Source of the DNA: Rhodocyclaceae bacterium
GTDB taxonomy: Bacteria > Pseudomonadota > Gammaproteobacteria > Burkholderiales > Rhodocyclaceae
Reading direction: 5' to 3'
Length of the DNA: 64,000 nucleotides
Assembly: GCA_006218025.1 (NCBI GenBank)
Contig: VBWA01000010.1
Location: 62,001 to 126,000 of the forward strand
Every line of letters starts with the position of its first letter. Within the stretch, counting starts at the first letter, position 1. This document shows positions 4,716 through 63,659 of the stretch, in pieces. The position numbers and the translations under genes are program-made. A model generated the notes under the pieces. That model had not been told where the DNA came from and did no database searches. It saw nothing but the letters and a program-made list of their open reading frames with translations.

Positions 4716-4739
4716 TCGCCGTGTCGCCAGCGCCGACTC
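4716..4739 (-). repeat. Family A 24-base repeat, copy 1 (intergenic)
   Basis: On the minus strand this reads GAGTCGGCGCTGGCG, then AC, then ACGGCGA, one of the closest matches to the family consensus. It lies in the 128-base gap between two convergent genes, so this copy cannot be explained by coding constraint. Confidence 0.8.
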
Positions 4740-4832
4740 TTGAGCTTAGGGAGCCAAGTTCGAGATTGGATTCGATACCGTTCTTTCGATCGCCAAAAGT
4801 CTTCGCGCGGCTACGATGATCGGCGTTGACGT

Positions 4833-6398
4833 TTATTGTCCAGGTCCCGGATAACCCGTGATCTCGCGTATCTCCCGATAGAGCGGTTGCAGGCGGCGGT
4901 ACATGCGGCAATAGACCTTGCGATAGAGCTGCTCGTAGATCCGCACGTGCTGCGCTTCGGGTGCAAACACCTGACCGACACGCGTCATCTCGCGCACGGC
5001 CGTGGCGAAGTCGGGATGCAGGCCGAGTCCGACGGCCGCGATTATCGCGGCGCCGAGTCCGCTGGTTTCATGGAGATGGGGACGCTCGGCCGGCAGACTG
5101 AATATGTTGGCGGTGATCTGCATCGCGGCGTCGCTTTGCGAGCCGCCACCGGAGACGCGCACGCGCTCGATGCGCGTTCCGCCGCGCCGTTCGATGCGCT
5201 CCCTGCCTTCGCGCAGGGCATAGGCGAGGCCTTCGAGAATGGCGCGATAGAGATGGGCGCGGGTATGGACTTCGCCGAAGCCGATCACGGCCCCCTTGGC
5301 TTCCGGACCGGGGACCTTGATGCCGGGGTTCCAGAACGGTTGCAGCATCAATCCCATCGAGCCGGGCGGCACCGCATCAACCAGTTCATCGAACAGACTC
5401 TCCGGCGCGACGCCGCGGCTGCGCGCCTCCTGTTCTTCGTGCAGGCCGAACTGTTCGCGGAACCAGTTCACCATCCAGAAGCCGCGGGTGATCTGGACTT
5501 CCGTGTTGTAGTGGCCGGGCACCGCGGCCTGGTAGGGCGGAATGAAGCGGATCGCCTCAAGATAGCGCGGCGTGGTGGTATTGATGGTGGCGGCGGTGCC
5601 GTAGGAAAGGCAGGCGATCTCGGGCGTCAGGCAACCGGCGCCGATCACTTCACAGGCCTTGTCGGCGGCACCGGCGATTACCGGCAGGTCCTGCGGAATG
5701 CCGGTGTCGTGCGCGGCCCCAGCACTGACCAGGCCGAGCGGCGTACCAGCCGGCACCAGTTCCGGCAGCATTTCGCGCTTGATCGGCAGGCACTGCCATT
5801 TCCAGTCCCAGGCGGACGCCCAGCGGCCGCGCTTGTAGTCGAATGGAATGTAGCCGACCTGGCTGGCGACGGAATCGACGAAGCGGCCCGTGAAGCGATA
5901 GTTCAGGTAGCCGGAGAGCAGCAGGTACTTGTCGGTGCGCGCCCAGATCGCGGGTTGGTGCTGCGCGATCCAGTTGGCCTCCGCCTCGCGCGCGAAGTAG
6001 GCGATGGTGTCGCGCATGCCGATGGCGCGCAGCGCCAGTTCCCACCACCAGGCCAGCTTGGGCCGGGTGTCGGCGCGCCGCTGATCGAGCCAGATGATGG
6101 CCGGACGCAGCGGCTGGCCGTGGAGGTCGAGATTGATCGTTGTCGCGCGCTGGGTAGTGATGACGACGCCGCGAATCGAACTTTTTGGGACCCGGGTGTT
6201 GGCCCAGAGGTGCTGGCAGGCCTGGCACAGCGCGACCCAGAATTCTTCCGGGTCGTTCTCCACCCAGCCCGGTTGCGGCGACTGGTAGCTGGTGATGTCG
6301 ACCTGCGCCTTGTCGACCAGATGGCCGTGCAGATCGAAGATCAGGGCGCGCACGCTCTGCGTGCCGTTGTCAATCGCGAGGAGGTAGTCGTTGCTCAT
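4833..6398 (-). CDS. FGGY-family carbohydrate kinase
   Basis: A 521-residue ATP-dependent sugar or polyol kinase. The actin-like N-terminal phosphate loop is LAIDNGTQSVRALIFD, the FGGY nucleotide-binding hallmark is RVRVSGGGSQSD near residue 420, and QRATTINLD plus WLDQRRAD fit the substrate domain. Its length matches xylulose, ribulose or glycerol kinase relatives. The exact substrate cannot be read from sequence, because no sugar transporter or isomerase is adjacent. It is the last gene of a minus-strand series after a FAH-family hydrolase. A 34-base near-perfect palindrome lies 20 bases before the ATG, so expression may be controlled there. Confidence 0.85.
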   Translation of the reverse strand: MSNDYLLAIDNGTQSVRALIFDLHGHLVDKAQVDITSYQSPQPGWVENDPEEFWVALCQACQHLWANTRVPKSSIRGVVITTQRATTINLDLHGQPLRPAIIWLDQRRADTRPKLAWWWELALRAIGMRDTIAYFAREAEANWIAQHQPAIWARTDKYLLLSGYLNYRFTGRFVDSVASQVGYIPFDYKRGRWASAWDWKWQCLPIKREMLPELVPAGTPLGLVSAGAAHDTGIPQDLPVIAGAADKACEVIGAGCLTPEIACLSYGTAATINTTTPRYLEAIRFIPPYQAAVPGHYNTEVQITRGFWMVNWFREQFGLHEEQEARSRGVAPESLFDELVDAVPPGSMGLMLQPFWNPGIKVPGPEAKGAVIGFGEVHTRAHLYRAILEGLAYALREGRERIERRGGTRIERVRVSGGGSQSDAAMQITANIFSLPAERPHLHETSGLGAAIIAAVGLGLHPDFATAVREMTRVGQVFAPEAQHVRIYEQLYRKVYCRMYRRLQPLYREIREITGYPGPGQ

Positions 6399-6417
6399 GG
6401 CCGCCCTCGATACTACC

Positions 6418-6451
6418 GAAACCTGCCGATTTACCGAAATCTGCAGGTTTC
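6418..6451 (-). promoter_or_regulatory. 34-base palindrome upstream of the FGGY kinase
   Basis: GAAACCTGC (6418-6426) pairs perfectly with GCAGGTTTC (6443-6451), and inside it GATTT (6428-6432) pairs with AAATC (6437-6441) around loop ACCG. Only one mismatch interrupts 15 stem positions. The sequence also contains the direct repeats ACCGAAACCTGC and ACCGAAATCTGC 18 bases apart. It could be a repressor operator or a 5'-UTR hairpin. Without a T tract on the minus-strand 3' side it does not look like an intrinsic terminator. Confidence 0.6.
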
Positions 6452-6467
6452 GCCGTTACCTGCCCGC

Positions 6468-6503
6468 GTCCCACTAGGGGATACCGTCCCTTCGGGACAT
6501 AAA
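6468..6503 (-). repeat. Family B double-hairpin repeat, copy 2
   Basis: On the minus strand: TTTAT, then GTCCC-GAA-GGGAC, GGT, then ATCCC-CTAGT-GGGAC. The inner stem is short (5 bp), but the boundaries and the second stem match the copy at 30801. It lies between FAH (stop at 6549) and the FGGY kinase (start at 6398), in their orientation. Confidence 0.75.
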
Positions 6504-6527
6504 GCGGAATCCCAGGTACGCAGAGCG

Positions 6528-6542
6528 CGCCAGCGCCGACTT
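6528..6542 (-). repeat. Family A repeat, core only
   Basis: The 15-base core AAGTCGGCGCTGGCG is perfect on the minus strand, but the following ACGGCGG half is absent. It lies immediately downstream of the FAH-gene stop, 25 bases from a family B element. Confidence 0.65.
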
Positions 6543-6548
6543 CTGGCC

Positions 6549-7388
6549 TTACTTGCTTGCGACTACGATCTGTTCCTGTTCGCCCAGGCCCTCGACGCCG
6601 AGCCTGACCCGGTCGCCGAGCTTCAGGTAGATGCCACGCCCCATGCCGACGCCTTGCGGCGTGCCGGTACAAATCACGTCGCCGGGCAGCAGGGTCATGA
6701 AACCCGACACGTAGCTGACGATTTCGGCGCAGGAAAAGATCATGTCGGAGGTGCACGAGTCCTGCATGCGTTCGCCATTGACATCGAGCCACAGGCGCAA
6801 CTGCTGTGGGTTGGCAACCTCGTCCCTGGTCACCAGCCACGGCCCGATGGGGCCGAAGCTGTCGCAGCCCTTGCCCTTGTCCCACTGGCCGCCGCGTTCG
6901 ATCTGGAAGGCACGCTCCGAGACGTCGTGGAACACGCAGTAGCCGGCGACGTGATCGAGCGCCTTTGCCTTGGTGACGTAGCGGGTCTCGCGGCCGATGA
7001 CGATGCCGAGTTCGGCTTCCCAGTCGAGCTTGGTGCTGCCGATGGGCATCAGGATCGGGTCGTTGGGGCCGGTAATGCAGGTGGTGGCCTTCATGAACAT
7101 CACCGGCTCGGCCGGGATCGGCATCTTCGCCTCGAGCGCATGTGCGCGGTAGTTGAGCCCGATGCCGACAATCTTGGAAATGCCGGTGAAGGGCACGCCG
7201 AGGCGCGGCTTGCCGCGCACTGCAGGCAGGGTGTCTGGGTTCAGTGCGCGCAGGCGCTTCTGCCCTGCCGCCGAGAGTTCGTTCCAGCCGATGTCGGCGA
7301 CATGGCCGGAAAGGTCACGCAGCGTGCCGGCAGCGTCGATCAGGCCGGGCTTTTCGCGGCCCTTCAGGCCGTAGCGAACCAGTTTCAT
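6549..7388 (-). CDS. Fumarylacetoacetate hydrolase family protein
   Basis: A 279-residue cytosolic FAH-fold enzyme (acylpyruvase, fumarylpyruvate hydrolase or ureidoglycolate lyase type). Features are LRYNLNYRAHALE-like LNYRAHALEAK, the metal-binding WEAELGIVIG, YCVFHDVSERAFQ, and the C-terminal DVICTGTPQGVGMG. These are the conserved divalent-metal and loop motifs of the family. The substrate is not determinable from sequence. It follows the MCE-protein gene by about 40 bases on the same strand, but a catabolic FAH has no known role in lipid transport, so the linkage may be incidental. A GGAAACG precedes the ATG. Confidence 0.9.
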   Translation of the reverse strand: MKLVRYGLKGREKPGLIDAAGTLRDLSGHVADIGWNELSAAGQKRLRALNPDTLPAVRGKPRLGVPFTGISKIVGIGLNYRAHALEAKMPIPAEPVMFMKATTCITGPNDPILMPIGSTKLDWEAELGIVIGRETRYVTKAKALDHVAGYCVFHDVSERAFQIERGGQWDKGKGCDSFGPIGPWLVTRDEVANPQQLRLWLDVNGERMQDSCTSDMIFSCAEIVSYVSGFMTLLPGDVICTGTPQGVGMGRGIYLKLGDRVRLGVEGLGEQEQIVVASK

Positions 7389-7427
7389 TTCGTTTCCTTG
7401 TTGACGGGGTGTTGCAGTGTGTCCTGG

Positions 7428-8444
7428 TCAGGGCGTGGTCTTCTGGCGCTTGCCGCGCCAGATGGCGTCCGGTTGCTGTTCCAGGGTTTCTGCCAGCAGG
7501 CGCAGGGCGTCGGCGGCGCGGGTGATTTCCTTGAGCGCGGCATTGACGTTGGCCACCGTCGGGGATTCCTGCTCGGTCAGCTTGCGCACTGCCGCGGCGG
7601 CCTTGGCCAGTTCCTCGCTGGCCTTGGTCATGTTGCCGACCATGGCCGAGTCGCTGCGGGTCAATTCGGCCACGCGATCGGCGGCCGTGTCGAGCTTCAT
7701 CAGCGCTGCCTGGGCTGCCAGAAGCGTCTTGTGCAGTTCAGCAAGGTTGCCTCGCACTTCTCCCATGATGGGGCCGCCCTGGGCATCGAAGCGGGCGGCC
7801 AGCGACTCGAGGTGCCGCAGCGTCGCGTCGAGACGTCGCGGCAGGTCCTGCGTCGCCGGCGCAGACATCAACTTGTTTACCGCGTCGCTGATGGCGGCCA
7901 CATCGGCGAGAAACTTGTCCATGGGGAAGCCTTCGAGCTTGGTCGTCAGCTCCTGCCCGGCGGTGCGTATGGTCGGAATTTCGCTGAGCTCGGGGTCGAG
8001 CGCGGCGAAGATCGCTGGTTTGTCGGAGTGAAAGTCGAGATCGACGTAAAGCTGACCGGTGAGCAGGCTCTGCATCCGCAGTCGCGCACGCAAGCCGCGC
8101 TCGACCAGCTGCCGCACCGTGGCGCGATCGCGCAGGTCGATGGGCTCGCCGCCGCGCGTGCGCACGACCTGGGGCTCCAGTTCGATCGTCACCGGCACCA
8201 GGAAGCGGCGGCTCTGCGGGTCGAGCCCGAGCTGGATCTGCTTGACGGTGCCGACCTTGACGCCAAGGAACATGACCGGCGCGCCGACCTGCAGGCCCTG
8301 CGCCGCCCCCTCGAAATACATGATGTGCTGCCGCCGCTCGCCGAACCAGCTGCCGCCGGCCAGCAGCAGCGTGGTGACGACCGCCAGCGCGAGCGCACCG
8401 AGGACGAAGGCGCCGATCAGCGTCGGGTTGGCTTTACGGCTCAT
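7428..8444 (-). CDS. mlaD: MCE/MlaD-family lipid-transport substrate-binding protein
   Basis: A 339-residue inner-membrane-anchored periplasmic protein. A single membrane segment (about 8-28, LIGAFVLGALALAVVTTLLLAG) is followed by an MCE domain (about 40-115, VGAPVMFLGVKVGTVKQI) and a long helical tail (about 200-335). MCE proteins form hexameric lipid-binding rings that work with MlaE permease and MlaF ATPase. It is longer than E. coli MlaD (about 180 residues) and closer to the PqiB/YebT-like or mycobacterial type with an extended tail. I chose the ATG at 8444 (MSRKANPT), which follows GGGGGAAGG, rather than an upstream in-frame ATG in repeat DNA. The lipoprotein partner often found next in such operons is absent. 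Confidence 0.88.
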   Translation of the reverse strand: MSRKANPTLIGAFVLGALALAVVTTLLLAGGSWFGERRQHIMYFEGAAQGLQVGAPVMFLGVKVGTVKQIQLGLDPQSRRFLVPVTIELEPQVVRTRGGEPIDLRDRATVRQLVERGLRARLRMQSLLTGQLYVDLDFHSDKPAIFAALDPELSEIPTIRTAGQELTTKLEGFPMDKFLADVAAISDAVNKLMSAPATQDLPRRLDATLRHLESLAARFDAQGGPIMGEVRGNLAELHKTLLAAQAALMKLDTAADRVAELTRSDSAMVGNMTKASEELAKAAAAVRKLTEQESPTVANVNAALKEITRAADALRLLAETLEQQPDAIWRGKRQKTTP

Positions 8445-8459
8445 GGACCTTCCCCCCAT

Positions 8460-8557
8460 CCCCCTTCCCAAGGAAGGGGGTGACAGGTGTTCGGCCCCGC
8501 GGCGCGCGGCCTCCGCGTCAATGGCTGGCCCCCGCTTGGGGCGGCCCGGCGCCGGGC
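8460..8557. repeat. REP-like palindromes between mlaF and mlaD
   Basis: The 115-base spacer inside this operon holds a 9-bp hairpin (CCCCCTTCC-CAA-GGAAGGGGG, 8460-8480) and a perfect 14-base palindrome GCCCGGCGCCGGGC (8544-8557). The C-rich sequence resembles extragenic palindromes common in betaproteobacteria. Its T-poor flank argues against a terminator. Confidence 0.55.
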
Positions 8558-8559
8558 GC

Positions 8560-9321
8560 TCATGTCGTTCCACCGCGGGTCAGAAAATGGCGCACTTTGG
8601 GGTGGCCGTTCTTCAGCGCGTCCTGCGGGTGCCCGGTGGCGATCATGGTGCGGCTTTCGGAGTCGAGATAGATTGAATTGTTGCCGATACTGAGGATGCT
8701 GGCCAGTTCGTGCGTGACGACGACGATGGTGGTGCCGAGGCTGTCGCGCAGTTCCATGATCAGTTCGTCGAGGCGGCGGGCCGTCAGCGGGTCGAGACCC
8801 GACGAGGGCTCGTCGATGACCAGGATGTCCGGATCGAGCGCCATCGCCCGCGCCAGCCCGGCGCGCTTCTTCATGCCGCCGCTGAGTTCGGAGGGGTAGA
8901 AGTCCTCGAAGCCGGCCAGCCCGACCAGCGCCAGCTTGAAGGCGACGATCTCGTTCACGCGGGCCGCCGGCAGGCCGGTGGATTCGGCGATAGGCAGCGC
9001 GACGTTCTCGGCCAGGGTCAGCGAACTCCACAGCGCACCGCCCTGGAACAGGATGCCGAGGCGGCGCTTGAGGCGTTGCTGGGTGTCCGGCTCGGCGTTC
9101 CAGAAGTCCTCGCCGCTGTAGATCACGGAGCCGGCCAGCGGACGTTGCAGGCCGACCAGGGCGCGCATCAGCGTCGTCTTGCCGCAGCCGTTGCCGCCCA
9201 TGACGACGAAGATGTCGCCCTGGTTGACCACGAAATCGAGGCCACGCTGCACCACGAAGTCGCCGTAGGCCATGCTCAGGTCACGAACCTCGATGTGCGG
9301 CGTCGCGGCCATGTCTTTCAT
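8560..9321 (-). CDS. mlaF: Mla-type ABC transporter ATP-binding protein
   Basis: A 253-residue cytoplasmic ATPase that drives lipid movement through MlaE. Walker A is GGNGCGKTT (42-50), the Q loop is LFQGGAL, the signature is LSGGM (146-150), Walker B is ILVIDEPSSGLD with D170 and E171, and the switch His is in VVTHELAS. The MlaF/Ttg2A-specific form FQGGALWSSLTLAENV is present. Its ATG (9319-9321) overlaps the MlaE stop in an ATGA, so the two are translationally coupled. M4 is a possible alternative start. Confidence 0.93.
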   Translation of the reverse strand: MKDMAATPHIEVRDLSMAYGDFVVQRGLDFVVNQGDIFVVMGGNGCGKTTLMRALVGLQRPLAGSVIYSGEDFWNAEPDTQQRLKRRLGILFQGGALWSSLTLAENVALPIAESTGLPAARVNEIVAFKLALVGLAGFEDFYPSELSGGMKKRAGLARAMALDPDILVIDEPSSGLDPLTARRLDELIMELRDSLGTTIVVVTHELASILSIGNNSIYLDSESRTMIATGHPQDALKNGHPKVRHFLTRGGTT

Positions 9322-10476: not shown

Positions 10477-11994
<1,518 letters not shown>

Positions 11995-17822: not shown

Positions 17823-19373
17823 CTAGAACAGCCGCGGGCCGGGCATGGCTGTCTTTGCCGTCGCCGTGGTTTGCCCGACGATGACTTCCTGGCCTTCCTT
17901 GACGTCGCCGGAAACAATCTCGGTCATGCTGCCGTCGGTCAGGCCGAGGCGCACATCGACGCCCTTGGGCTTGCCGTCCGCGCCGAGGATCCAGATACGT
18001 CCACTGCCGCCGCCGCCACCGGCGCGTGCGGCTTGGGACTCGCTGGCCAGTTCGTCGTAGCGCTTCTGCTGCTCGGGATTGAGAACGGCCGTGACCTTTT
18101 CCCGGATCTCGGCTCGATTGCGTTCCTGGGCCTTGGCTTTTTCCGCCTCGGGCAGGTCGCGGGCCGCACGGTACTTATCGCGCATGGCGGCGAAGATGGC
18201 GTCCACCTTGCCTTGCTGATCGGCATCGAGTTTAAGTTCGGCGACCAGGCGCTCGCGCAGCTGAGCCAGACCGCCTCCTCCCCCGGCGGCGGCACCAGCG
18301 GTACCTGATGCCGCAGAAGTCGGCGCTGGCGACACGGCGGTCGCGGCCTTTTTTTCGTCGGCCGTGCCTGTCGGACGGAAGCGCAGCGCCGCATTGGGCG
18401 CCTTCAGCACCTTGTCTTTCTGTGCGGTAACGATACGCACGTTGGCCGTCATGCCCGGCAGCAAGGTGAGATCGGGGTTCGCCGCCGAGATCACCACGAT
18501 GTAGGTCACGACGTTCGACACCACGGTGGCGGCCTTGCGCACCTGCCGTACCTCGCCCTCGAAGTGGCGGCCGGCGAAGGCGTCGACCGTGAAGGTGGCT
18601 TTCTGCCCGACACGGACGCGACCCACGTCGGCCTCGTCGATCGAGGTTTCCACCTGCATGTCGGTCAGGTTCTTGGCGATGACGAACAGTTCCGGCGCCT
18701 GCAGGCTGGCAGCCACCGTCTGCCCTGGTTCGATGCTGCGCTTGACCACGATGCCGTCCACCGGCGCCCGGATGGTGGTGCGTTCCAGGTCGACGCGGGC
18801 CGCTGCCAACTGGGCCTCGCGCTGGCGGACGACAGCTTCGCCGTTCCTTACCTGAGCCTCCGCTGAAGCGAGCGACGCGCGGGCTACGTCCAGGTTGTTC
18901 TGTGCGGTGTCGCGCTCGGCCGGGGAGATGAAGTTCTTTTCAACCAGCGTCTTCTTGCGCTCGTAGTCGCGCTGGGCATTGGCCAAGCTGGAGCGGGCGC
19001 GAGCCACTTCCGCCTGCTGCACGCCCTGACCGGCGCGCGCGGCGTCGACGTCCGCTTCGGCCTGCCGCACGCGATGCTGATAGGTTTCCGGGTCCAGTTG
19101 CGCGATCAGCTGGCCGGATTTCACCGGCGAGTTGAAGTCGACCAGGATTTCCTTTATCTGGCCCGAGACCTGCGAGCCGACCTGCACCGAAACCACCGGG
19201 TTCAATGTGCCGGTGGCTGAGACGGCCGCAGTGAGGGGGCCGCTTTCCAGCTTGGCGAACTTGAGTTTGGGGGCGTCGCCTGCCGTACCGTAATAGCGCC
19301 ATGCCGCGTAACCGGCGGCAGCGAGAATGATCAGGACGAGGGCGACAAGCCCGAAGCGCGAGGAGGTTTTCAT
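17823..19373 (-). CDS. macA: MacA-like periplasmic adaptor with inserted Spy/LTXXQ-like segment
   Basis: A 516-residue membrane-fusion protein (MacA is usually about 370-390). It has an N-terminal anchor (about 7-27), a lipoyl half (QVSGQIKEILVDFNSPVKSGQLIAQLD), a long coiled coil (about 95-185), the second lipoyl half (TTIRAPVDGIVVKRSIEPGQTV) and a beta-barrel domain. Between the barrel and the C-terminal strands lies an extra block of about 100 residues (about 344-445): a low-complexity Ala/Gly linker beginning with a family A repeat, then a charged helical pair (LDADQQGKVDAIFAAMRD, LNPEQQKRYDELASE) with the L-x-x-x-Q-Q pattern of Spy/CpxP-type LTXXQ proteins. I infer a periplasmic chaperone-like or stress-sensing insert. 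Confidence 0.88.
   Translation of the reverse strand: MKTSSRFGLVALVLIILAAAGYAAWRYYGTAGDAPKLKFAKLESGPLTAAVSATGTLNPVVSVQVGSQVSGQIKEILVDFNSPVKSGQLIAQLDPETYQHRVRQAEADVDAARAGQGVQQAEVARARSSLANAQRDYERKKTLVEKNFISPAERDTAQNNLDVARASLASAEAQVRNGEAVVRQREAQLAAARVDLERTTIRAPVDGIVVKRSIEPGQTVAASLQAPELFVIAKNLTDMQVETSIDEADVGRVRVGQKATFTVDAFAGRHFEGEVRQVRKAATVVSNVVTYIVVISAANPDLTLLPGMTANVRIVTAQKDKVLKAPNAALRFRPTGTADEKKAATAVSPAPTSAASGTAGAAAGGGGGLAQLRERLVAELKLDADQQGKVDAIFAAMRDKYRAARDLPEAEKAKAQERNRAEIREKVTAVLNPEQQKRYDELASESQAARAGGGGGSGRIWILGADGKPKGVDVRLGLTDGSMTEIVSGDVKEGQEVIVGQTTATAKTAMPGPRLF
18317..18340 (+). repeat. Family A 24-base repeat, copy in macA
   Basis: AAGTCGGCGCTGGCG, AC, ACGGCGG: a perfect consensus match, antisense to macA. 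It encodes A-V-S-P-A-P-T at the start of the low-complexity linker that joins the Spy-like insert to the adaptor. Confidence 0.85.
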
Positions 19374-20711: not shown

Positions 20712-23323
20712 TGGTGGCTCCACTGGTGGGCACATGTCGCCAGCCATGCGTCCTTGCCGCCACGCAAATCGGCAATTGCCGAGGCCAGGTCAATGATCGA
20801 GGATTGCGCCGGGTGTTTGCGGTTGGAAAAGAACAGCATCACCAGAATATCGCGGGTGCGGGTATCCGGTACCAGTTCGATCAGTTCCTTGCAGCGCTCA
20901 GTCAGTCGCAGATCGGTGCTGCCCATGGCAGCCCGCAGGGTACCTGCGAGAGCTTGCAGCGGACCATGCCCGAATGCAGAAAAACCAACGCGGCTCAGCT
21001 CGAGGACGCGCTCGCTGAGCGCCATTTGCAACAGGTGGGCGGCTTGGCCGGCGCTGCGCTCCAACCGTTGTGCCAACAACGAATAGTCAGTTGCCAGCTT
21101 CGCGTAACGGGCTGCCAATTCGCACATCGAGCCGTGGTCGAGCACAGTGGCCAGTATGCCAACCGCGCGTTTCTGGCCGCGTGAGGTCAGCGAACCATCG
21201 CGTAGTGCGCCTTGCAGGTCTTCGCCGAGCCCGTTGGAGGCATTCGTCTGCAATGCCGCCGTCACGCCAGCGCCGACTTTCGGATGTGGCGTATCGAGCA
21301 GTGGCAGCAGCAATGCTTGCCGCTCGGCTGCCGGCATTCGGACAATGACCGCGAGCAAGGCGTCCTGCCCCGCGGCGTCGGGTGTATGCGCCAGCAGCTC
21401 GCGCAGATGAGGCGCCAATGCTGACGGGAGTGGCGCTTCCTGTGCGGCCAGGGCATGGAGTACTGGCAGAGCGGCTTGGCCGTCCGGGGCTGCGGCCAGC
21501 CCGTCAAGCAGCAGAGGAAGCAGCTTGACGGTCGGGGCCAGGGTAAAGGTGCTCAGGGCGGCGCGGCGAAGCCGGGGGTCATTTCCCATCACGTATTTAC
21601 TCAGCATTGCCAGGGCTGTGGTGTCAGCCCCGTTTTCCAGCGCTGCCGCCCAATGGCAGACCAGCAGGCGCGGATGGACGTGTCGTTCGGCCGGGTCGAT
21701 GCGATCCCATGGCAATGGCCATTGCTTGCGCAGAGCGATGGTCAGAGCGGTAGCCTGGGCGTGTACGTCACCGGCAAACAGGGCGTCATAGAGGATGTCG
21801 CGTTGTTCGGCTTGAAGGTGCGGTGCCAGCGCATGCGCCAAGCGGTCGCGCAGCGGTATGGGCGCTGTGGCCAGGTGATCGACTATGGGTTTTAGGGCAG
21901 CATCGGGAAAGTGGGCCAGCAGGATGCGGGCAGCATTCTCGGCTTTCCCGAAGTCATTGCCCTGGAGGTGGCCACAGAGTTCGGCAATCAGCCGCTGGCT
22001 GTCGCGTTTGTTCCAGCCGGTGAATTGCTCCGGAGCAACGAAATGCCGCTCACGCAGGGTGCTGATCAGGGCATCCGCATAGGCACGATTGGCGAGCCAG
22101 GCAGACCGCAGACTGAGCAGGGCGGCGGCGAGCCCGATCAGGGTAATCGCGGTTTGCGATGCGTGACAGAAGTACAGGATCAGACCCGATGCGATCATTG
22201 CCGCCGGTGTCATGACCACCAGTGCCAGAGCGCGGACGCGGCCCTGCATGGTGTCGGGCAGGGCCTGCAGCATCAGGGCGCGGACCGGATTGCGCACGGC
22301 GGCAAGGAGTACATAGCGGTTGTAGGCAGCCGCCGTTGCCGCCGCAAGCGCCCAGGGAGAAAAAAATGCCATCAAGGTGGCAAGAAGGGTCAGCGGGAAC
22401 ACGAGATTGATGCTGCGCAAGCCGAATCGCCGGATCAAGGCCGGCACCAGTCCCATCTGCAGCAGAAATGTACTCGCACCGCTGACGAGGATGATCAGGC
22501 CGTAGAGAGTCGCCAGACTTTCGGCGTCGTGCAAGGTTTCGGCGAAGGTGCGCTTGAACAGATACGCCGAAATGAATACCGCGATGACGCTGTACATGAC
22601 CGATAGCGAGACATGGCGCAGCAATGGGGAGCGTTTCAGGAATTCCCGTCCTTGCCGCAATTGGCGCAGCGTCTGTGGCAGGTGACGCCTGCGTGGCGCG
22701 CCTGGAAGCCGGTTGATGTCGTGTCGGTGCCGGAAGAGTATCAGCGCCAGTGCCAGTCCAATGAACAGCGGCCAGAGCAATGCAGTGGTCTCTGCGCCGA
22801 GACGCGGAGCGAGCAGGATCAGTGTGATGCCGCCCAGCATGTCGCCCACCGGACCACCGGCGAAAGCGATTGGTGCCAGACGCTTGGCCTGTTCGCCGAA
22901 GAAAGTGGCGCCAACGTAAAGCGTGGCGTGCAAGGCGAGGGTTTCGGACGCGCTCACGTAGAGCAGATACAGCGCACCCCAGACGACGTCCGGTGCCCCA
23001 AGAATTCCAGCCAGCCACAGGACCATCACCGCACCGACGACCACGCCGAGAATAGCAGCCATCACGCGCTCGGGCGGATAGCGGTCAGCCACTGTGGCGT
23101 AGGCAAGACTCAAACTGCTGAGCGTAAGTCCCTGTATCAGGAAGATGACGGGGAGATAGTCGATGCCGTAGCGCTTCAAGAAAAGCGTGTTTGAGACGCC
23201 GCGGGCAATTGCCATGCCAAAGCCGATCAGCAGCAGCAGCAGGAAAAAATAGGGCAGGTGAATGCCGCCGATCCTCGCGGCACCCGGGGCTGACAGCATA
23301 TGAAGAAAGCGGGAATGTGCCAT
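20708..23323 (-). CDS. Npt1/Npt2-like (ATP:ADP antiporter-type) membrane transporter with HEAT-like tail
   Basis: An 871-residue protein. The first ~440 residues hold about 12 membrane segments beginning IHLPYFFLLLLLIGFGMAIARGVSNTLFLKRYGIDYLP, the opening typical of bacterial proteins distantly related to plastid and chlamydial nucleotide translocases. The remaining ~430 residues are soluble alpha-helical repeats of HEAT type (for example ADTTALAMLSKYVMGNDP, PLLLDGLAAAPDGQAAL). The start ATG at 23323 gives a short N-terminus; one at 23299 is possible. A family A repeat lies in the helical part. Substrate unknown; transport of nucleotides is not proved by sequence. It is coupled to the cNMP-binding gene. 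Confidence 0.7.
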   Translation of the reverse strand: MAHSRFLHMLSAPGAARIGGIHLPYFFLLLLLIGFGMAIARGVSNTLFLKRYGIDYLPVIFLIQGLTLSSLSLAYATVADRYPPERVMAAILGVVVGAVMVLWLAGILGAPDVVWGALYLLYVSASETLALHATLYVGATFFGEQAKRLAPIAFAGGPVGDMLGGITLILLAPRLGAETTALLWPLFIGLALALILFRHRHDINRLPGAPRRRHLPQTLRQLRQGREFLKRSPLLRHVSLSVMYSVIAVFISAYLFKRTFAETLHDAESLATLYGLIILVSGASTFLLQMGLVPALIRRFGLRSINLVFPLTLLATLMAFFSPWALAAATAAAYNRYVLLAAVRNPVRALMLQALPDTMQGRVRALALVVMTPAAMIASGLILYFCHASQTAITLIGLAAALLSLRSAWLANRAYADALISTLRERHFVAPEQFTGWNKRDSQRLIAELCGHLQGNDFGKAENAARILLAHFPDAALKPIVDHLATAPIPLRDRLAHALAPHLQAEQRDILYDALFAGDVHAQATALTIALRKQWPLPWDRIDPAERHVHPRLLVCHWAAALENGADTTALAMLSKYVMGNDPRLRRAALSTFTLAPTVKLLPLLLDGLAAAPDGQAALPVLHALAAQEAPLPSALAPHLRELLAHTPDAAGQDALLAVIVRMPAAERQALLLPLLDTPHPKVGAGVTAALQTNASNGLGEDLQGALRDGSLTSRGQKRAVGILATVLDHGSMCELAARYAKLATDYSLLAQRLERSAGQAAHLLQMALSERVLELSRVGFSAFGHGPLQALAGTLRAAMGSTDLRLTERCKELIELVPDTRTRDILVMLFFSNRKHPAQSSIIDLASAIADLRGGKDAWLATCAHQWSHQ
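21256..21279 (-). repeat. Family A 24-base repeat, copy in the Npt-like gene
   Basis: AAGTCGGCGCTGGCG, TG, ACGGCGG on the minus strand: a perfect consensus match. It is sense to the gene and encodes K-V-G-A-G-V-T-A between two HEAT-like helices. Confidence 0.85.
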
Positions 23324-30770: not shown

Positions 30771-30799
30771 ACACCAGAGGCGTCCCGCGCCTCTGGTGT
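30771..30799 (+). terminator. Strong hairpin after the rhodanese gene
   Basis: ACACCAGAGGCG, loop TCCCG, CGCCTCTGGTGT: a perfect 12-bp stem 25 bases after the stop. Only GTTTAT follows, so termination is probable but the T tract is weak. A family B repeat begins immediately after. Confidence 0.7.
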
Positions 30800-30800
30800 G

Positions 30801-30846
30801 TTTATGTCCGCGGCGCCCTGCGGCGGACGGTATCCCCTGGTGGGAT
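30801..30846 (+). repeat. Family B double-hairpin repeat, copy 3
   Basis: TTTAT, then stem GTCCGCGGC...GCGGCGGAC (one mismatch), GGT, then ATCCC-CTGGT-GGGAT as a second perfect stem. It ends 34 bases before the UPF0324 permease ATG and has its orientation. Confidence 0.8.
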
Positions 30847-32801: not shown

Positions 32802-32834
32802 GTCCCGCCCAGCGGGGCGGGGCTTTTCATTTTA
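32802..32834 (+). terminator. Rho-independent terminator after the membrane peptide
   Basis: GTCCCGCCC pairs with GGGGCGGGGC (one bulged G, loop AGC) and is followed by TTTTCATTTT. It ends the permease-peptide transcript and overlaps the start of a family B repeat. Confidence 0.85.
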
Positions 32835-32878
32835 TGTCCCCGGCCTCCGGCCGCGGACGGTATCCACGGATCCGGATA
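32831..32878 (+). repeat. Family B double-hairpin repeat, copy 4
   Basis: TTTAT, stem GTCCCCGGC...GCCGCGGAC (one mismatch), GGTATCC, and a second stem TATCC...GGATA. The last base of the second stem is the A of the uspA start codon, so the repeat forms that gene's whole translation-initiation region. Confidence 0.75.
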
Positions 32879-37348: not shown

Positions 37349-39486
<2,138 letters not shown>

Positions 39487-41797: not shown

Positions 41798-42751
41798 ATG
41801 GAATTCTTCCGCATCAGAAAAGATATCCCGTTCATGCGCCATGCACTGGTGTTCAACGTCATATCGTTGGTCACCTTCCTGCTGGCGGTGTTCTTCCTGG
41901 TCAACAAGGGGTTGCACTTCTCGATCGAGTTCACCGGCGGCACCCTGCTCGAAGTGAGTTATGCGCAGGCGCCCGATCTCGACAAGTTGCGCAAGCAAAT
42001 GGAGGCCGACGGTTTTACCGATACCCAGGTGCAGAATTTCGGGTCGTCGCGAGACGTGTTGATCCGCGTCCCGTTGTCGAAGGATGCGGAAACGTCCAAG
42101 GTCGGCGAGCGCGTCATGGCTTCGCTGACAAGAGTCGGCGCTGGCGATACGGCGGCGGCAGCCGGGGCGCCAACGCTCAAGCGCGTCGAATTCGTCGGCC
42201 CGCAAGTCGGCAAGGAGCTTGCATCGGATGGGGCACTGGCGCTGCTGCTGGTGGTGTGCGGCATCGTGCTGTACTTGGCGATGCGTTTCGAATGGCGCTT
42301 CGCGGTGTCGGCCATCATCGCCAACATGCACGACGTGGTGATCATTCTCGGCTGCTTCGCGCTGTTCCAGTGGGAGTTTTCCCTGCCGGTGCTGGCGGCC
42401 GTATTGGCCGTGCTGGGCTATTCGGTCAATGAGTCGGTGGTGGTGTTCGACCGGGTGCGCGAAACCTTCAAGAAGAAGCGCGGCATGACGACGCCGCAGG
42501 TACTCGATCACGCCATTACCAGCACGATCTCGCGCACCATCATCACCCACGGCTGTACGCAGATGATGGTCACGTCGATGCTGATCTTCGGCGGCCCCGC
42601 GCTGCATTACTTTGCGCTGGCGCTGACCATCGGCATCCTGTTCGGCATCTATTCGTCGGTTCTCGTGGCCAGTCCGCTGGTGATGTGGATGGGCGTTTCC
42701 CGCGAACAGTTCATCCAGGTCAAGGTCGAGAAACAGGAAGCCGTCGTCTGA
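41798..42751 (+). CDS. secF: Protein translocase subunit SecF
   Basis: A 317-residue partner of SecD. Motifs are FSIEFTGGTLLEVSY, VEFVGPQVGKELA and VVFDRVRETFKKKRG, with six membrane helices. Residues 112-121 (RVGAGDTAAA) come from a family A repeat and appear to lengthen a variable periplasmic loop relative to other SecF proteins, as far as I can recall them. Confidence 0.96.
   Translation: MEFFRIRKDIPFMRHALVFNVISLVTFLLAVFFLVNKGLHFSIEFTGGTLLEVSYAQAPDLDKLRKQMEADGFTDTQVQNFGSSRDVLIRVPLSKDAETSKVGERVMASLTRVGAGDTAAAAGAPTLKRVEFVGPQVGKELASDGALALLLVVCGIVLYLAMRFEWRFAVSAIIANMHDVVIILGCFALFQWEFSLPVLAAVLAVLGYSVNESVVVFDRVRETFKKKRGMTTPQVLDHAITSTISRTIITHGCTQMMVTSMLIFGGPALHYFALALTIGILFGIYSSVLVASPLVMWMGVSREQFIQVKVEKQEAVV
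42132..42155 (+). repeat. Family A 24-base repeat, copy in secF
   Basis: GAGTCGGCGCTGGCG, AT, ACGGCGG: one difference from consensus. It is sense and encodes V-G-A-G-D-T-A-A in the periplasmic loop. Confidence 0.85.
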
Positions 42752-58867: not shown

Positions 58868-59689
58868 ATGTGGCTCCTGGCACCCTTTCGGCTGGTCGTG
58901 CGCACGGCGCGCCGGTTTCATGGCGAGCACTGCGCGCAGACCGCAGCGGCGCTTTCGTTCGCGACCTTGATTGGTCTGGTGCCCATGATTGCAGCGGCGT
59001 TCGCCTTGTTATCGCTGCTGCCGGTTGGTGCCGGCCTTGGTTCCGCGCTGGAGAAATTCCTCCTTGCGAACCTGCTGCCTGACAAGGCGGGCGTCATCAT
59101 CGCAAAATACATTGGACAGTTCGCATCGCGCGCCGGACGGGTGACCTTTGTCGGGATAGCGGTGCTGGGAGCGACCGCATTGATGCAAATGCTGACCATA
59201 GAGCGGGCTTTCAACCATATCTGGCGAGTCAAGGCTGGCCGGCCGCTGTTGCGACGCCTGGCCATTCATGTCCTTGCGCTGCTGCTCGGACCGCTGGTAT
59301 TCGGTGCCAGCATCGCCGCAATCTCGTTCATCGCCGGTGTATCGCTTGGCCTCCTCAATGAACCGTATTGGGTGACAAATCTCGTGGTCAGGGTATTGTT
59401 GCCGTTTGCGTTCATGACTACCTTGTTCGGTCTGCTGTATTGGGGCGTACCCAACAAGCCCGTAAAAGTTTGGGATGCGTGCTTTGGCGGAGCGATGGCG
59501 GCACTGGGCTTTGTCGGTCTGCAGAAACTATTTGCGCTCTATATTGCGGCCGGATTTACGGTCAACTCGGTTGTCTATGGCACCTTTTCCGCAATCCCGG
59601 TATTCCTGATCTGGCTCTACGCCTCGTGGAGCGTGATTCTGATCGGCGCACTGCTGGTCGCCGAGTTGCCGCAATCCGTCCGAGCCTAA
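58868..59689 (+). CDS. YihY/UPF0761 family inner-membrane protein
   Basis: A 273-residue protein with about six membrane segments. It opens MWLLAPFRLVVRTARRFHGEHCAQTAAALSFATLIGLVPM, the family hallmark (T-A-A-A-L-S-x-x-T-L-x-x-x-x-P). YihY-type proteins were once called RNase BN; that assignment has been dropped and the role is unknown. An in-frame TTG at 58859 is less likely as start. It converges on the PilZ-like gene with a 4-base overlap. Confidence 0.88.
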   Translation: MWLLAPFRLVVRTARRFHGEHCAQTAAALSFATLIGLVPMIAAAFALLSLLPVGAGLGSALEKFLLANLLPDKAGVIIAKYIGQFASRAGRVTFVGIAVLGATALMQMLTIERAFNHIWRVKAGRPLLRRLAIHVLALLLGPLVFGASIAAISFIAGVSLGLLNEPYWVTNLVVRVLLPFAFMTTLFGLLYWGVPNKPVKVWDACFGGAMAALGFVGLQKLFALYIAAGFTVNSVVYGTFSAIPVFLIWLYASWSVILIGALLVAELPQSVRA

Positions 59690-61197
59690 TCGGCGGTGGG
59701 ATTGCGAATGAACTCAAAGACTTCGATGCTGGAGGTTTCGATGAGACTCCGGTGCGGCATGCATTCGACGATCCGCAAGCGGGCGTCGTTCTCCTGGAGC
59801 AAAGTGAATGGACGCGCGTTGTAATCGCCCCGCGCGGCCAGAATCGCTTCACCGCGGTTGAGGCTCGGCAGGGCCGGCAGCAGCAGCGCAGGTATCGGCG
59901 GCTCCGGATTTCGCGTGGTCAAGGCTTGTATTCGTATTGGCTTTGCCGATGGTGCCAGGACCTCCAGTCCCAACTCGACATGGCTGCTGCTCTTGCTGCG
60001 AGCCCAGCGCACGAGGCAGATCTGCCAGGCGGCACCCGCACCCGTGCGCAAACCTACGGCACAACCCGGCACGATGCCGGTGACCTCGCCGACGACATGC
60101 ACGATGGCATAACCTGCGGGGCCTTCGTTGAGCAACGTCCAGTCACTGTATGTCAGCTCGCATTCGCGGGAATGTGGTTCCACCTGAGAATCGCTGCCCA
60201 GAGCTGTCCACAATGTACTCAGTTGCGTACAGACCTCCACCGGCAGGGCTTGCGGGCGGCGATTGTAACTGCGTCGTCGCGGCGCAGTCCAGCATTGACG
60301 AGCCCGTTCCAGCGCGTTGCGGTAGTCAGCGCCGGCTGCCTGAAGTGGCAGGCCGAGTGACAATGGCGGCACACCATCGCCTAGTTGGTCGAGATGCCGC
60401 GCAGCCAGCTCGGCAAGTTCGCCAAAACGGAAGTAAAGGCAGGGTCCGCCGTCAGGTTTGACGCGCTCGAGGGATATCGGTGGCTGGTCAATATTGGCGT
60501 TGAGCCACAGCCAGTCGCCGCCCGTCTCGGGACAGATCATGTCGATGCGGGTGGCCGCAGCGTTGCTCTCGAGATAGTCCGCAAGAAAGGCAATTTCGCG
60601 AGGCGCGAGCCCCTCGGGTTGTGCTGCCGTGAGCGCCAACATGGCCTTGAAGCGGGCATCGATGGCGCTCATTTCGGCGGGCAGGGTCGCTGTCGGGTCG
60701 ACGGACTCGCGAGCAGAATGATAGAGCGCTTGCGCGTTGCGCCAGAAGCCCATTGGCGTGGGGGTCGCGGTCAGCAGGGTGGCGACGAGTTGCCGCGACA
60801 GGTTGAAAATTCCCTGCAAACAGATTTGCGCGCCACTGCGGCGAATGCCGGCAAGATTTCTGGGATTGACGTCGCCGGCGATTCTCAGCCACGCTTCACC
60901 CAATTCTGCTCGCAGACCGATCAAGCCCTGGGCGACCGTGCCAAGGTGGATCGGCAATGGCAGCTTGACGTCGAGTAACAGCGGGATGAGCGCCTCATCA
61001 ATTCGTTCGGCGCGCTGTTGGAGCAACTCGTCGATCTTGATGCGGCTTCGCAGGGGAAGTTCCAGGAGCCCAAGCGCAGCGATGTGATTTCGCAAGGGCA
61101 CCAGATCGAGCAGCGGATCGCCCTGCTGGGGCTCGGCGAGCCAGTCCAATGCCTGCTGTAGCTGGATCGGCGGCGAAGGAATCTTCTTGCGGCGCAT
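59686..61197 (-). CDS. Protein with C-terminal PilZ-like region, function unknown
   Basis: A 503-residue cytosolic protein. The first ~290 residues are helical with no recognised motif. The C-terminus holds RRRSYNRR at about 307-314, like the RxxxR c-di-GMP motif of PilZ domains, then NEGPAGYAI at about 357-365 in the place of D/NxSxxG, with GLRTGAG nearby. A c-di-GMP role is possible; the motif is imperfect. It is divergent from pyrF. Confidence 0.7.
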   Translation of the reverse strand: MRRKKIPSPPIQLQQALDWLAEPQQGDPLLDLVPLRNHIAALGLLELPLRSRIKIDELLQQRAERIDEALIPLLLDVKLPLPIHLGTVAQGLIGLRAELGEAWLRIAGDVNPRNLAGIRRSGAQICLQGIFNLSRQLVATLLTATPTPMGFWRNAQALYHSARESVDPTATLPAEMSAIDARFKAMLALTAAQPEGLAPREIAFLADYLESNAAATRIDMICPETGGDWLWLNANIDQPPISLERVKPDGGPCLYFRFGELAELAARHLDQLGDGVPPLSLGLPLQAAGADYRNALERARQCWTAPRRRSYNRRPQALPVEVCTQLSTLWTALGSDSQVEPHSRECELTYSDWTLLNEGPAGYAIVHVVGEVTGIVPGCAVGLRTGAGAAWQICLVRWARSKSSSHVELGLEVLAPSAKPIRIQALTTRNPEPPIPALLLPALPSLNRGEAILAARGDYNARPFTLLQENDARLRIVECMPHRSLIETSSIEVFEFIRNPTAD

Positions 61198-61280
61198 GGC
61201 GAGCTGAATGGCCTAAGGTGAAACACGATTCTAGTAGAATCCGGACGCGTTTTCTTCTGCCACCCTGCGAGGTATCCGAA

Positions 61281-62015
61281 ATGACCAGCCTGTTGTCTGC
61301 CAAGCCGATCGAACCGATGGATCGATTGATCGTCGCACTCGATGTCCCGGACGCCGAGGCCGCGCGCGATCTGGTGACCGAGCTGGGCGATGCGGTGGTC
61401 TTTTACAAGATCGGGCTGGAACTCTTCATGACCGGTGGCTATTTCGAACTGCTGCATTGGCTCGTCAGTCAGGGCAAGAAGGTCTTTGTCGATCTGAAGT
61501 TCTTCGATGTACCCGAAACCGTGCGTTCCGCGGTACGGGCATTGGCGGGCAGCGGAGCCACGTTTGCCACCATTCATGGCAATCAGGCGATCATGGAAGC
61601 GGCGGTGATAGACAAGGGCGATCTCAAGATTCTGGCGGTCACCGTGCTGACCAGCCTCGATCGCGGCGATCTGGACGACCTCGGTTTCGCCTGCGATGTG
61701 GACAAGCTCGTGCTGTCCCGCGCGCGCCGGGCGCTGGCCGCAGGGGTGGATGGCATCGTTTCGTCCGGCCTCGAGGCGCCGATGATCCGGCGCGAATTGG
61801 GCAACAAACTGATGGTGGTCACCCCTGGCATCCGACCGGTCGAGAACAAGCCGGTCGATGACCAGAAGCGTACCGTCGATGTCGCCCAGGCTTTCAGAAA
61901 CGGTGCCGACTATATTGTGGTCGGCCGGCCGATCCGCCAGGCGGTGAATCCGCGCCAGGCGGCGCTCGCCATCCAGCAGACCATCCGCGAGGTGTTCGCT
62001 CTGCCGGGAAGGTGA
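61281..62015 (+). CDS. pyrF: Orotidine 5'-phosphate decarboxylase
   Basis: A 244-residue TIM-barrel enzyme that makes UMP. The catalytic motif is D71-x-K73-x-x-D76 in [12 protein letters not shown], and the phosphate-binding end is [13 protein letters not shown] chose the ATG at 61281. GCGAGGTATCC lies before it. It stands alone, 113 bases before rpsP. Confidence 0.96.
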
Positions 62016-62068
62016 AGGAGCCTGCCGGCTTTGAGAGCTCAAGGCGATCAATAGCCGAATGCTATGCC

Positions 62069-62097
62069 TTGTTTTATCCGGCTTTTTGCAATAAAAT
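62069..62097 (+). promoter_or_regulatory. Sigma-70 promoter of the rpsP operon
   Basis: TTGTTT (62069-62074), exact 17-base spacer, TAAAAT (62092-62097). Transcription would begin near 62104, 25 bases before the rpsP ATG. Confidence 0.75.
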
Positions 62098-62128
62098 CGC
62101 CGGCTTTCCCGCTTTTCAAGAGAACACC

Positions 62129-62383
62129 ATGGTTGTTATTCGTCTCGCCCGTAGCGGCGCCAAGAAGCGCCCTTTCTTCAATATGGTGGTCGCCGATTCG
62201 CGCAACCGCCGCGATGGCCGCTTCATTGAGCGCATCGGCTATTACAATCCTGTCGCCGCCGCGAACGAAAACGGGCTGGTGATCAATACCGAACGTCTGG
62301 CCTTCTGGCAGGGGCATGGCGCGCAGTTGTCGCCTACTGCCGCACGTCTGGTCAAGCAGGCAGCGGCGACAAAGGCCGCCTAA
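62129..62383 (+). CDS. rpsP: 30S ribosomal protein S16
   Basis: An 84-residue ribosomal protein with the normal opening [41 protein letters not shown]. It is needed for 30S assembly. First gene of rpsP-rimM-trmD-rplS. rimM follows after 5 bases. Confidence 0.97.
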
Positions 62384-62388
62384 GCCGC

Positions 62389-62895
62389 ATGATTGTTTTG
62401 GGGCGCATCGTCGCCCCGTTTGGAGTGCAAGGCTGGCTGCGGGTTCATCCCTTCGGTGATGACCCCGAGGCGTGGCGGAAGATGGCGCAGTGGTGGCTTT
62501 CTGCGGATGTCGATGCTCCGGCCGAAAGCTGGAAGGTGCATGGTCTCGAAGCCGTGAAACTGCACGGCGATGGTGTCGTGGCGAAGCTTGCCGGCATTGA
62601 CGATCGGGACGCATCCGAAGCGCTGGGCAGCGTTTTTTTTGGCGCGCCGCGCGAGGCTCTGCCGCCACCGGTGCAGGATGAGTACTACTGGGTCGATCTG
62701 ATCGGCCTGGCGGTAGTGAATATGCAGGGCCAGCCCCTGGGCCGGGTCAAGTCTCTGATCGAGACGGGCGCGAATGAGGTGCTGGTGGTAGTGGACGGCG
62801 AGCGCGAGAGATTGCTGCCCTTCGTTGAACATGTAGTGAAGGCGGTGGACATTCCGGGCGGAATAATTCACGCCGACTGGGATAGCGACTGGTGA
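62389..62895 (+). CDS. rimM: 16S rRNA processing protein RimM
   Basis: A 168-residue assembly factor for the 30S head that binds S19. The beta-barrel opening is [21 protein letters not shown] and the PRC-barrel half is [40 protein letters not shown] overlap with trmD. Standard length. Confidence 0.96.
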
Positions 62896-63659
62896 GCTTG
62901 CGCTTCGATGTCATCACGCTGTTCCCCGAGATGTTTGCAGCGCTCACGGCATCGGGAATTACCCGGCGCGCGCTGGATCGGGGACTGTGGCAGATCGAAT
63001 GCTGGAACCCTCGCCAGTGGACGCAGGATGTGCATCGAACGGTGGATGACCGGCCTTACGGCGGCGGCCCCGGGATGGTAATGATGGCCTCGCCGCTGGA
63101 ACAGGCGATAGTTGCAGCAAAAGCGGCAGCAAAGGCGGCGGCAAAAGTCGGCGCTGGTGGTACGGCAAAAGTGATTTATCTTTCACCACAAGGCGCGCGG
63201 ATTGACCAGCGGCGTGTGGTGGAACTGGCGGAAAGCGACGGGGCGATTTTGCTCTGCGGCCGCTACGAAGGAATTGATGAGCGGCTGATTGAACGCTGCG
63301 TGGATGAAGAGCTGTCGCTGGGCGATTTTGTTCTTTCCGGCGGCGAACTGGCGGCGATGGCCTTGATGGATGCATGCATCAGGCAACTGCCAGGTGCGTT
63401 GAACGATGAGGCTTCGGCAGTTGAGGATTCGTTTGCCGCAGGCTTGCTGGACTGTCCGCACTACACGCGGCCGGAGGTGTATGAAGGATCTGCGGTGCCG
63501 GATGTGCTGTTGTCCGGCAACCACGAAAGAATCCGGCGCTGGCGCCTTAAACAGGCGCTGGGAAGGACTTGGCAAAGGCGTCCTGATCTTCTTGAGGTCA
63601 GGGAGTTGAACCGGGAAGAAGCCGATCTGCTGGCGGAGTTCCAGCGGGAAGGCAAGTAG
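62892..63659 (+). CDS. trmD: tRNA (guanine-N1)-methyltransferase
   Basis: A 255-residue SPOUT enzyme that makes m1G37. GTG start in a GTGA overlap with rimM. The knot motifs are [26 protein letters not shown] and [13 protein letters not shown], and [16 protein letters not shown] follows. Between IVAAKAAAK and [10 protein letters not shown] it has a longer Ala/Lys/Gly loop than E. coli TrmD, partly encoded by a family A repeat (63145-63168). Confidence 0.96.
63145..63168 (+). repeat. Family A 24-base repeat, copy in trmD
   Basis: AAGTCGGCGCTGGTG, GT, ACGGCAA: three differences from consensus. It is sense and encodes V-G-A-G-G-T-A in the extended trmD loop, close in length to the apparent insertion relative to E. 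coli TrmD. Confidence 0.75.

Follow-up and report, generated by a model that had tools for sequence, protein, structure and literature searches.

A dispersed 25-base word in a Rhodocyclaceae bacterium and its genus as a probable DNA uptake signal

The repeated word in the window

The window analyzed here is a stretch of 64,000 nucleotides from a Rhodocyclaceae bacterium (assembly GCA_006218025.1, contig VBWA01000010.1, positions 62,001 to 126,000 of the forward strand), and the subject of this report is a word of about 25 bases that is repeated in it on both strands, inside genes as well as between them (Table 1). A first-pass annotation, made from the letters alone, had listed seven full copies and one core-only copy, all of which were found at the coordinates and on the strands it gave, the copies at 4716 and 6528 lying between genes and the others inside unrelated genes. 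The consensus it had written is matched exactly by only three of the seven full copies, the other four departing from it at one to three bases, and a further copy, in tgt, had been overlooked. Allowing up to three mismatches, the window holds 8 copies against 0 in 100 dinucleotide shuffles of it, which bears out the judgment that the repeat is beyond chance. The products of queA, tgt, secF and trmD match their families above the curated cut-offs, as does the MacA/RND adaptor (TIGR01730); the best model for the RhlE-like helicase (E 1.7e-161, 538 bits) falls under its cut-off of 743, and the MFS and TLC-transporter matches of the 911-aa open reading frame (ORF) are both under cut-off. The window also carries a second repeat family, TTTATGTCC-hairpin-GGACGGTAT, and a related element abuts the core-only copy at 6528.

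Table 1. Copies of the word in the window and other features located in this study (positions are those of the window unless another locus is named)
Feature	Position	Strand	Context
Word, 2 mismatches	4716..4739	-	Between convergent genes for a DUF294/CBS protein and an FGGY sugar kinase
Core-only copy	6528..6542	-	Between the boundaries (6398, 6549) of ORFs that have NCBIfam matches; abuts the hairpin element at ~6470-6527
Word, exact	11910..11933	+	N-terminal end of the RhlE-like helicase gene (gene on minus strand); peptide AVPPAPT
Word, exact	18317..18340	+	MacA/RND adaptor gene (on minus strand), C-terminal part past the family match
Word, exact	21256..21279	-	Inside the 911-aa MFS/TLC-transporter-like ORF
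Word, 1 mismatch	38148..38171	+	Towards the end of queA; peptide VGAGETAL
Word, 3 mismatches	38435..38458	-	In tgt
Word, 1 mismatch	42132..42155	+	Variable loop of secF; site compared genus-wide
Word, 3 mismatches	63145..63168	+	In trmD
Second repeat family	587-625, 30795-30833, 32825-32863
Element related to second family	~6470-6527
Hairpin inserts in word	secF site of L191, L194, L207, L208
Hairpin insert in word	queA site in L221
Hairpin insert in word	L155:10114		Compared with L117
Hairpin inserts in word	L153:14232, 15833, 16325

Form and abundance of the word

Profiles built from 85 copies in the genome that contains the window (G000, 4.44 Mb in 141 contigs) and 84 copies in a second genome of the genus (G002, a single contig of 3,802,648 bp) agree on the 25-base consensus RARAGTCGGCGCTGGCG-RB-ACGGCG-R, in which a purine and then a non-A base stand before ACGGCG and a final purine. 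The edges of the profile are sharp, information falling almost to background no more than two bases beyond them, and the flanks are unconserved; homologous flanks are what transposition or duplication of an element should leave, and the word has none.

The 22-base core, AGTCGGCGCTGGCGNNACGGCG, occurs in 289 exact copies in G000, 151 forward and 138 reverse, and a reversed-pattern control has 0 exact matches. When up to three mismatches over the 22 fixed bases are allowed, 399 kb sampled from G000 contain 72 copies, about one per 5.5 kb, with no match to the reversed control at the same level. The annotation had asked for a test against a codon-preserving model and had named counts no higher than codon and GC content predict as grounds for giving up the repeat. 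Shuffling synonymous codons (30 shuffles, based on first-pass gene calls that overlooked genes such as trmD) leaves 4.4 copies expected against 48 seen in 463 kb of G000, and 3.6 against 56 in 480 kb of G002. The word is short, non-palindromic and strongly over-represented on both strands, as an uptake signal should be.

Placement in the genome

Placement was counted with our own second-pass gene caller in the 463 kb of G000 and 480 kb of G002. Copies are in excess between genes, with 29 of 80 being intergenic in G000, where 9.0% of the DNA is intergenic (binomial p 2e-11), and 28 of 87 in G002, where 9.8% is (p 8e-9). Of the genic copies in the two genomes, 54 of 60 on the same strand as the gene read in the frame K-V-G-A-G-x-T-A and 34 of 50 on the opposite strand in the frame A-V-x-P-A-P-T, with other frames used too; the two dominant frames are harmless. 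This dominance is the argument for supposing that the word is a by-product of codon bias or of a peptide that recurs (VGAGxTA or AVxPAPT). That explanation has practically no probability left and we rejected it: the codon-preserving shuffles abolish the word, 57 of 167 copies are intergenic, other frames occur, the host proteins are unrelated, and in one congener, G010, a G-to-A change in the word alters the peptide in both favored frames. Nor is the word confined to places where a protein motif is conserved, the other outcome that the annotation had named as fatal.

Orientation was examined in G002, where the leading strand was assigned by the sign of the GC skew of each 20-kb stretch, and 39 copies lie on the leading strand and 48 on the lagging. 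The skew to one strand per replichore that characterizes FtsK-orienting polar sequences (KOPS) and architecture-imparting sequences (AIMS) is therefore missing, and the nucleoid or replication signal listed among the candidates of the annotation is contradicted as regards replication and orientation, with a site for a nucleoid protein still compatible. An apparent one-strand polarity in G002 was dismissed, since a plus-only listing reflected the order of listing and both strands appear in the sampled stretches. Non-coding excess, tolerated frames inside genes and lack of replication polarity are what an uptake signal would show.

Spacing was evener than random on C7, the longest contiguous stretch of G000 (coefficient of variation 0.70 vs 0.98, P 0.0035). 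The longest copy-free gap in the G000 sample (28.7 kb, C28:14803-43466) spans a surface-sugar locus with NeuB-, LegB- and LegC-type enzymes above cut-offs and a PseF-like protein and nucleotidyltransferase-like proteins under cut-offs; strains commonly exchange surface-sugar loci. In both G000 and G002, GC is lower in 5-kb bins that hold no copy. Together with this one surface-polysaccharide locus, the lower GC only suggests that the word is scarce in islands. Between convergent genes at L181:11776-11827, two copies stand inverted, 4 bases apart, and make up a 23-base stem without mismatch that resembles a terminator.

How the copies arise

Genic copies of G000 and G002 were compared with their orthologues by tblastn, using queries from the first gene caller and counting as a copy in the orthologue anything with up to five mismatches anywhere in the aligned stretch. 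The 166 orthologue pairs divide into 100 with a copy in the aligned region, 34 without one and ungapped nearby, and 32 without one and gapped nearby; the pairs are not independent, since a few sites, secF above all, yield many of them and one site may enter from both genomes. In 22 of the gapped pairs the gaps total no more than five residues, with many falling in the MacA linker or the loop of secF; the largest shortfall of a relative in the columns examined is six residues, and in no gapped pair does it reach eight. Where relatives are without the word in tgt or in the L214:2552 gene, different residues fill the site and its length is unchanged; the tgt copy, present in G002, is absent from six of the seven relatives compared, with a gap in none. 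The queA copy is common to G002, G007, G017, G028 and L124, has four mismatches in G016, and in G025 its site holds a hairpin insert. Because orthologues lacking the motif are mostly ungapped or short-gapped and never without the eight residues, the alignments argue that substitution, not insertion, is the usual origin of the short word.

These comparisons bear directly on the mobile mini-repeat that the annotation had offered as a candidate, that is, an element of the repetitive extragenic palindromic (REP), Correia or Rickettsia palindromic element (RPE) kind inserted at each place. An insertion with an empty site in relatives was not found in the orthologue pairs, 34 of the 66 motif-lacking pairs being ungapped and the other 32 never without the eight residues. 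The unconserved flanks and the switching of dialects at fixed sites (see below) argue in the same direction. Some copies do contain hairpin forms in frame where sister species have the short word, and one Y1 transposase fragment was found at a contig end, both of which speak for mobility. For the short form we nevertheless regard this explanation as largely refuted and very unlikely to be correct.

Hairpin elements at word sites

Hairpin elements interrupt the short word at fixed points, at some orthologous sites, and remain in frame within genes. Form 2 is TTATGCGNAGCGGTATCCC...GGGA, form 3 is TTCCC-NNN-GGGACGCAGAG, form 4 is GCCCCGAAGGAAGTCCCCTTGGGG and form 5 is a related form; these forms insert at loci that include secF, queA and rhlE, sister species having the uninterrupted short word there. 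Form 2 and some copies of form 3 have G-N-A loops, which make unusually stable DNA hairpins. The entry of forms 2-5 at fixed points could mean that the word serves mainly as a target at which this hairpin family docks or inserts, its abundance being a consequence. Such a role is highly improbable given that the minor forms are rare in G000, with 12 exact matches to form 2 and 2 to form 3 beside 289 cores (form 4 has 4), and that the form-4 hairpin is spread over the order (7 of 150 genomes, G000 included) and also occurs outside the word. GCCCCGAAGGAAGTCCCCTTGGGGGA is a widespread mini-hairpin element present in 7 of 150 genomes of the order; it is in tandem in L239 (1501-1554), occurs in L240-L243 too and was met several times near contig ends.

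Distribution and dialects

The exact core was found in 30 of 30 congeners searched, with 1 to 302 copies each, as compared with 0 or 1 in six genomes from other genera of the family and 0 in 24 genomes from other families of the order. In a collection of named sequences at least 111 stretches carry the word; among the matches listed, 89 are named Sulfuritalea, Sulfurisoma, Rhodocyclaceae or Rhodocyclales, and the remaining 22 are, for example, Burkholderiaceae, Casimicrobiaceae, Propionivibrio, Rugosibacter or Thiobacillus, or bear a class or phylum name only. One congener, G016 (99% complete, ComEC present), has one exact copy and a few relics, and because the word is present in both main secF clades this scarcity looks like a loss. 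No dialect of its own was found in G016, the top words being multihaem-cytochrome-like repeats (by motif reading, with no family search) and intergenic TCTGCGCC repeats, with relics only of the word.

Several neighboring observations are recorded here for completeness. A separate repeat of G016 consists of TCTGCGCCTCTG words that stand as inverted pairs close together (L249:1072-2212, L257:506-607). In two genomes from other genera of the family, TTCGCTGGGTTCGCTG and GCGTTGGCGTTGGCG are over-represented (L268-L272 in G032, L279-L283 in G035) and look like local tandem repeats. Contigs of the IMG/VR viral collection (L284-L403) hold the exact core in at least 120 stretches, which may be prophage, host flank or word-carrying phage. 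Beyond the copy by which each was selected, their density is 0.047 per kb (at least 120 loci) vs 0.116 per kb for genome contigs (111 loci), and we did not retain them as distinct carriers of the word, as they are indistinguishable from host flanks.

Dialects were sampled in 200 kb of G027 and 80 kb of G010 (a mixed state), with a few copies from G001 and G015. G027 has few standard copies, and de novo word counts in its 200 kb gave AGTTGGCGCTGGCG as the leading dispersed word. In this AGTTGG dialect position 5 is T in 26 of 27 G027 copies, 3 of 3 in G015 and 3 of 4 in G001, as against 1 of 110 copies in G000 and 0 of 91 in G002; the trmD orthologue of G027 carries it as well, and lone T-forms occur outside the dialect group, for example at one G011 site. 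Five of 26 G027 copies have an orthologous copy in the sequences compared, and all five have switched relative to the species of other dialect (17 of 20 orthologous pairs differ, the other three being pairs with G001 or G015). The low counts in G001, G015 and G027 are consequently not read as decay, the dialect having been found in G027 and the few copies of the other two agreeing. G010 has the variant GAGT(A/C)GACGC(C/T)GGCG, with A at position 7 in 8 of 9 close copies. The C-to-T change of the first dialect is synonymous in both favored frames and the G-to-A change of G010 non-synonymous in both. A further word, AAAAGTGAAACG in G025, was rejected as a dialect because it is clustered and not a dispersed signal. 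Since unlinked sites change in concert, the dialects indicate a single reader of the word, and a lineage-limited word with dialects is expected of an uptake signal.

A single reader could also sit inside the cell, the word then being the binding site of a DNA-organizing or DNA-maintenance protein, with each site kept by selection. The profile is long, sharp and like that of a protein site, spacing is fairly even on one contig, and an altered protein could likewise alter the word. We consider this unlikely: the word has no replication polarity, is non-palindromic and is nearly lost in G016, a dialect switch would need separate selection at dozens of unlinked sites, and the alleles of a pilin-like gene are linked to the word.

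A pilin-like gene beside rpe

Competence machinery was scored on two kinds of protein, and by this measure it is present as an uptake signal requires: ComEC was found in 30 of 31 genomes of the genus and N_methyl pilin-like proteins in 31 of 31. Both also match in most control genomes of other phyla. The N_methyl pilin-like proteins of four genomes were then read (16 in G000, 10 in G002, 16 in G016 and 11 in G025), and one of them is 82% identical between the motif-rich G000 and G002 and 36-40% identical between G000 and the motif-poor G016 and G025. Its gene adjoins rpe at 22 of 26 loci found (not in G006, G021, G022 and G029), with galE on the far side at 11. This locus is one of 16 G000 candidates, was picked in the four-genome comparison and is the sole gene so tested.

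The gene was searched in all 31 genomes, and the density tests, which omit the four discovery genomes, concern the standard form only because G001, G015 and G027 carry a dialect. Thirteen genomes with a G000-like allele have 26-53 standard words per Mb and nine with a divergent allele 5.7-40 (Mann-Whitney p 0.0013); with the five genomes without a pilin match added, p is 0.008. Phylogenetic dependence was handled in part. A permutation within clades over the 21 genomes with a secF clade and a pilin match gives 0.00045, the rpe-adjoining loci alone (11 vs 7) give p 0.0014, and this restricted set with G001, G015 and G027 counted once gives p 0.0096. As a control, secF identity shows no link with word density (rho -0.20, p 0.34). 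Sister genomes agree with the link, as in G000 (65 per Mb) vs G028 (27), G002 (80) vs G010 (28), G012 and G004 (49 and 44) vs G009 (32, no pilin match), and G014 (53) vs G003 (21, no pilin match, 82% complete). In the pilin tree, which omits the alleles of G021, G022 and G028 and the first G029 match (ORF not located), the eight placeable divergent alleles cluster together, contrary to the secF-region tree, and the G010 allele groups with those of G027, G001 and G015. A Pfam search of the protein returned no domain besides N_methyl. On this comparison of sequences the gene is a candidate receptor gene, a lead and not an identification.

Interpretation

Our analysis suggests that the word is probably a DNA uptake signal, a tag of self-DNA of the kind represented by the DNA uptake sequence (DUS) of Neisseria and the uptake signal sequence (USS) of Haemophilus and unrelated to them in sequence. 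Of the three candidates of the first-pass annotation this one is best supported, by a word that is abundant in a single genus among the genomes searched, lies on both strands without polarity, is enriched between genes, arises by substitution, favors tolerated frames, switches between dialects and is statistically linked to the alleles of a pilin-like gene. Uptake, receptor binding and drive are what we infer from these observations. A surface receptor of the type IV pilus or competence machinery would prefer DNA bearing the word, imported DNA would recombine at homologous places, and mutations that improve the match would spread, so that the word would build up wherever the protein sequence tolerates it. 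A change in the receptor would change the preferred word, and the genome would drift to a new dialect or the word would decay; receptor-biased uptake with recombination would thus be the force that builds and rewrites it.

Several points weigh against this interpretation. ComEC is widespread, and G016 has it yet has all but lost the word; in the open-license PMC literature we found no report of competence in the genus. The four stretches of G000 other than C7 are not evenly spaced, the 28.7-kb gap departs only mildly from expectation (in about 4% of draws, copies placed at random on its contig are equally clumped), and the inverted pair at L181 is the only tight one in the G000 and G002 samples. 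Hairpin inserts specific to the word are not predicted by an uptake signal. G010 is mixed, with 114 exact standard cores genome-wide beside its variant, and this, together with the weak island statistics, has led us to mark down our confidence slightly. As regards the pilin-like gene, bit score and density are modestly rank-correlated (rho 0.45, p 0.035), the 250-bit cut that separates the allele groups was chosen after the scores were known, and part of the low standard-word density is dialect shift and not loss. Exceptions to the link are G022 (54% allele, 40 per Mb) and G024 (35 per Mb), as well as G023 (57 per Mb, 86% complete), G020 (56 per Mb, 70% complete) and G009 (32 per Mb, 99% complete), which have no pilin match. 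The candidate protein is acidic, with a net charge of -3 to -9 in 23 ORFs; passages of PMC3630211 describe ComP with an electropositive stripe. Finally, the Neisseria DUS has a density of one per 400-1100 bp in the relevant part of PMC7371117, compared with about one per 5.5 kb here.

A more specific proposal, which we put forward tentatively and hold to be somewhat more doubtful than probable, is that this is a third independently evolved bacterial uptake-signal system, beyond those of Neisseriaceae and Pasteurellaceae, whose 25-base word has three dialects or more and in which the receptor would be the pilin-like protein encoded between galE and rpe, and replacement of its allele would rewrite the word genome-wide or let it decay. 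In the open-license PMC literature no uptake sequence was found described for Rhodocyclales, and the literal 14-base core was unmatched. Passages of PMC7811141 and PMC1939737 describe uptake signals from two bacterial families. A third, unrelated case in environmental Sulfuritalea-type bacteria, if true, would mean that self-DNA tagging evolves repeatedly. The genus would offer natural replicates, with sister species that have different dialects or almost no word and a candidate allele that tracks it, and would make testable which receptor reads the word and whether biased uptake alone accumulates words.

Comparison with known systems

Like KOPS and AIMS, the word is repeated genome-wide; it differs from them in having no strand polarity relative to GC skew, and KOPS are far shorter. 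RPE- and REP-type elements are small dispersed repeats tolerated in frame inside genes, and the hairpin forms at some word sites are like them, in contrast to the main motif, which has no flank homology and mostly arises at constant length.

The USS of Pasteurellaceae carries AT tracts, and the word described here is GC-rich without them, unrelated in sequence and found in a different bacterial group. The two are alike in their mixture of intragenic and non-coding copies, the non-coding excess and the lack of orientation bias; for H. influenzae, the account in parts of PMC1939737 gives 65% of USS within ORFs, an excess in non-coding DNA and no orientation bias. The same parts of that paper report uptake words as evenly spaced, with about 10% in inverted pairs; compared with USS and DUS, even spacing is matched here on one stretch out of five, and inverted pairs make up a smaller share. 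A minor pilin, ComN/PpdA, is proposed as the USS receptor of Pasteurellaceae in a passage of PMC12616744.

With the DUS/ComP system of Neisseriaceae the differences are an unrelated sequence, a different bacterial group, a word of about 25 bases in two blocks as opposed to 10-12, a density about 5- to 14-fold lower even at three mismatches, and a candidate pilin-like protein that, unlike ComP, is acidic and has the N_methyl domain only. The likenesses are an abundant, non-palindromic, lineage-specific word, present on both strands, in genes and between them, and with dialects. In Neisseria, the distribution of DUS dialects agrees with the ComP tree (passages of PMC3630211) and DUS are scarce in genomic islands (passages of PMC7371117).

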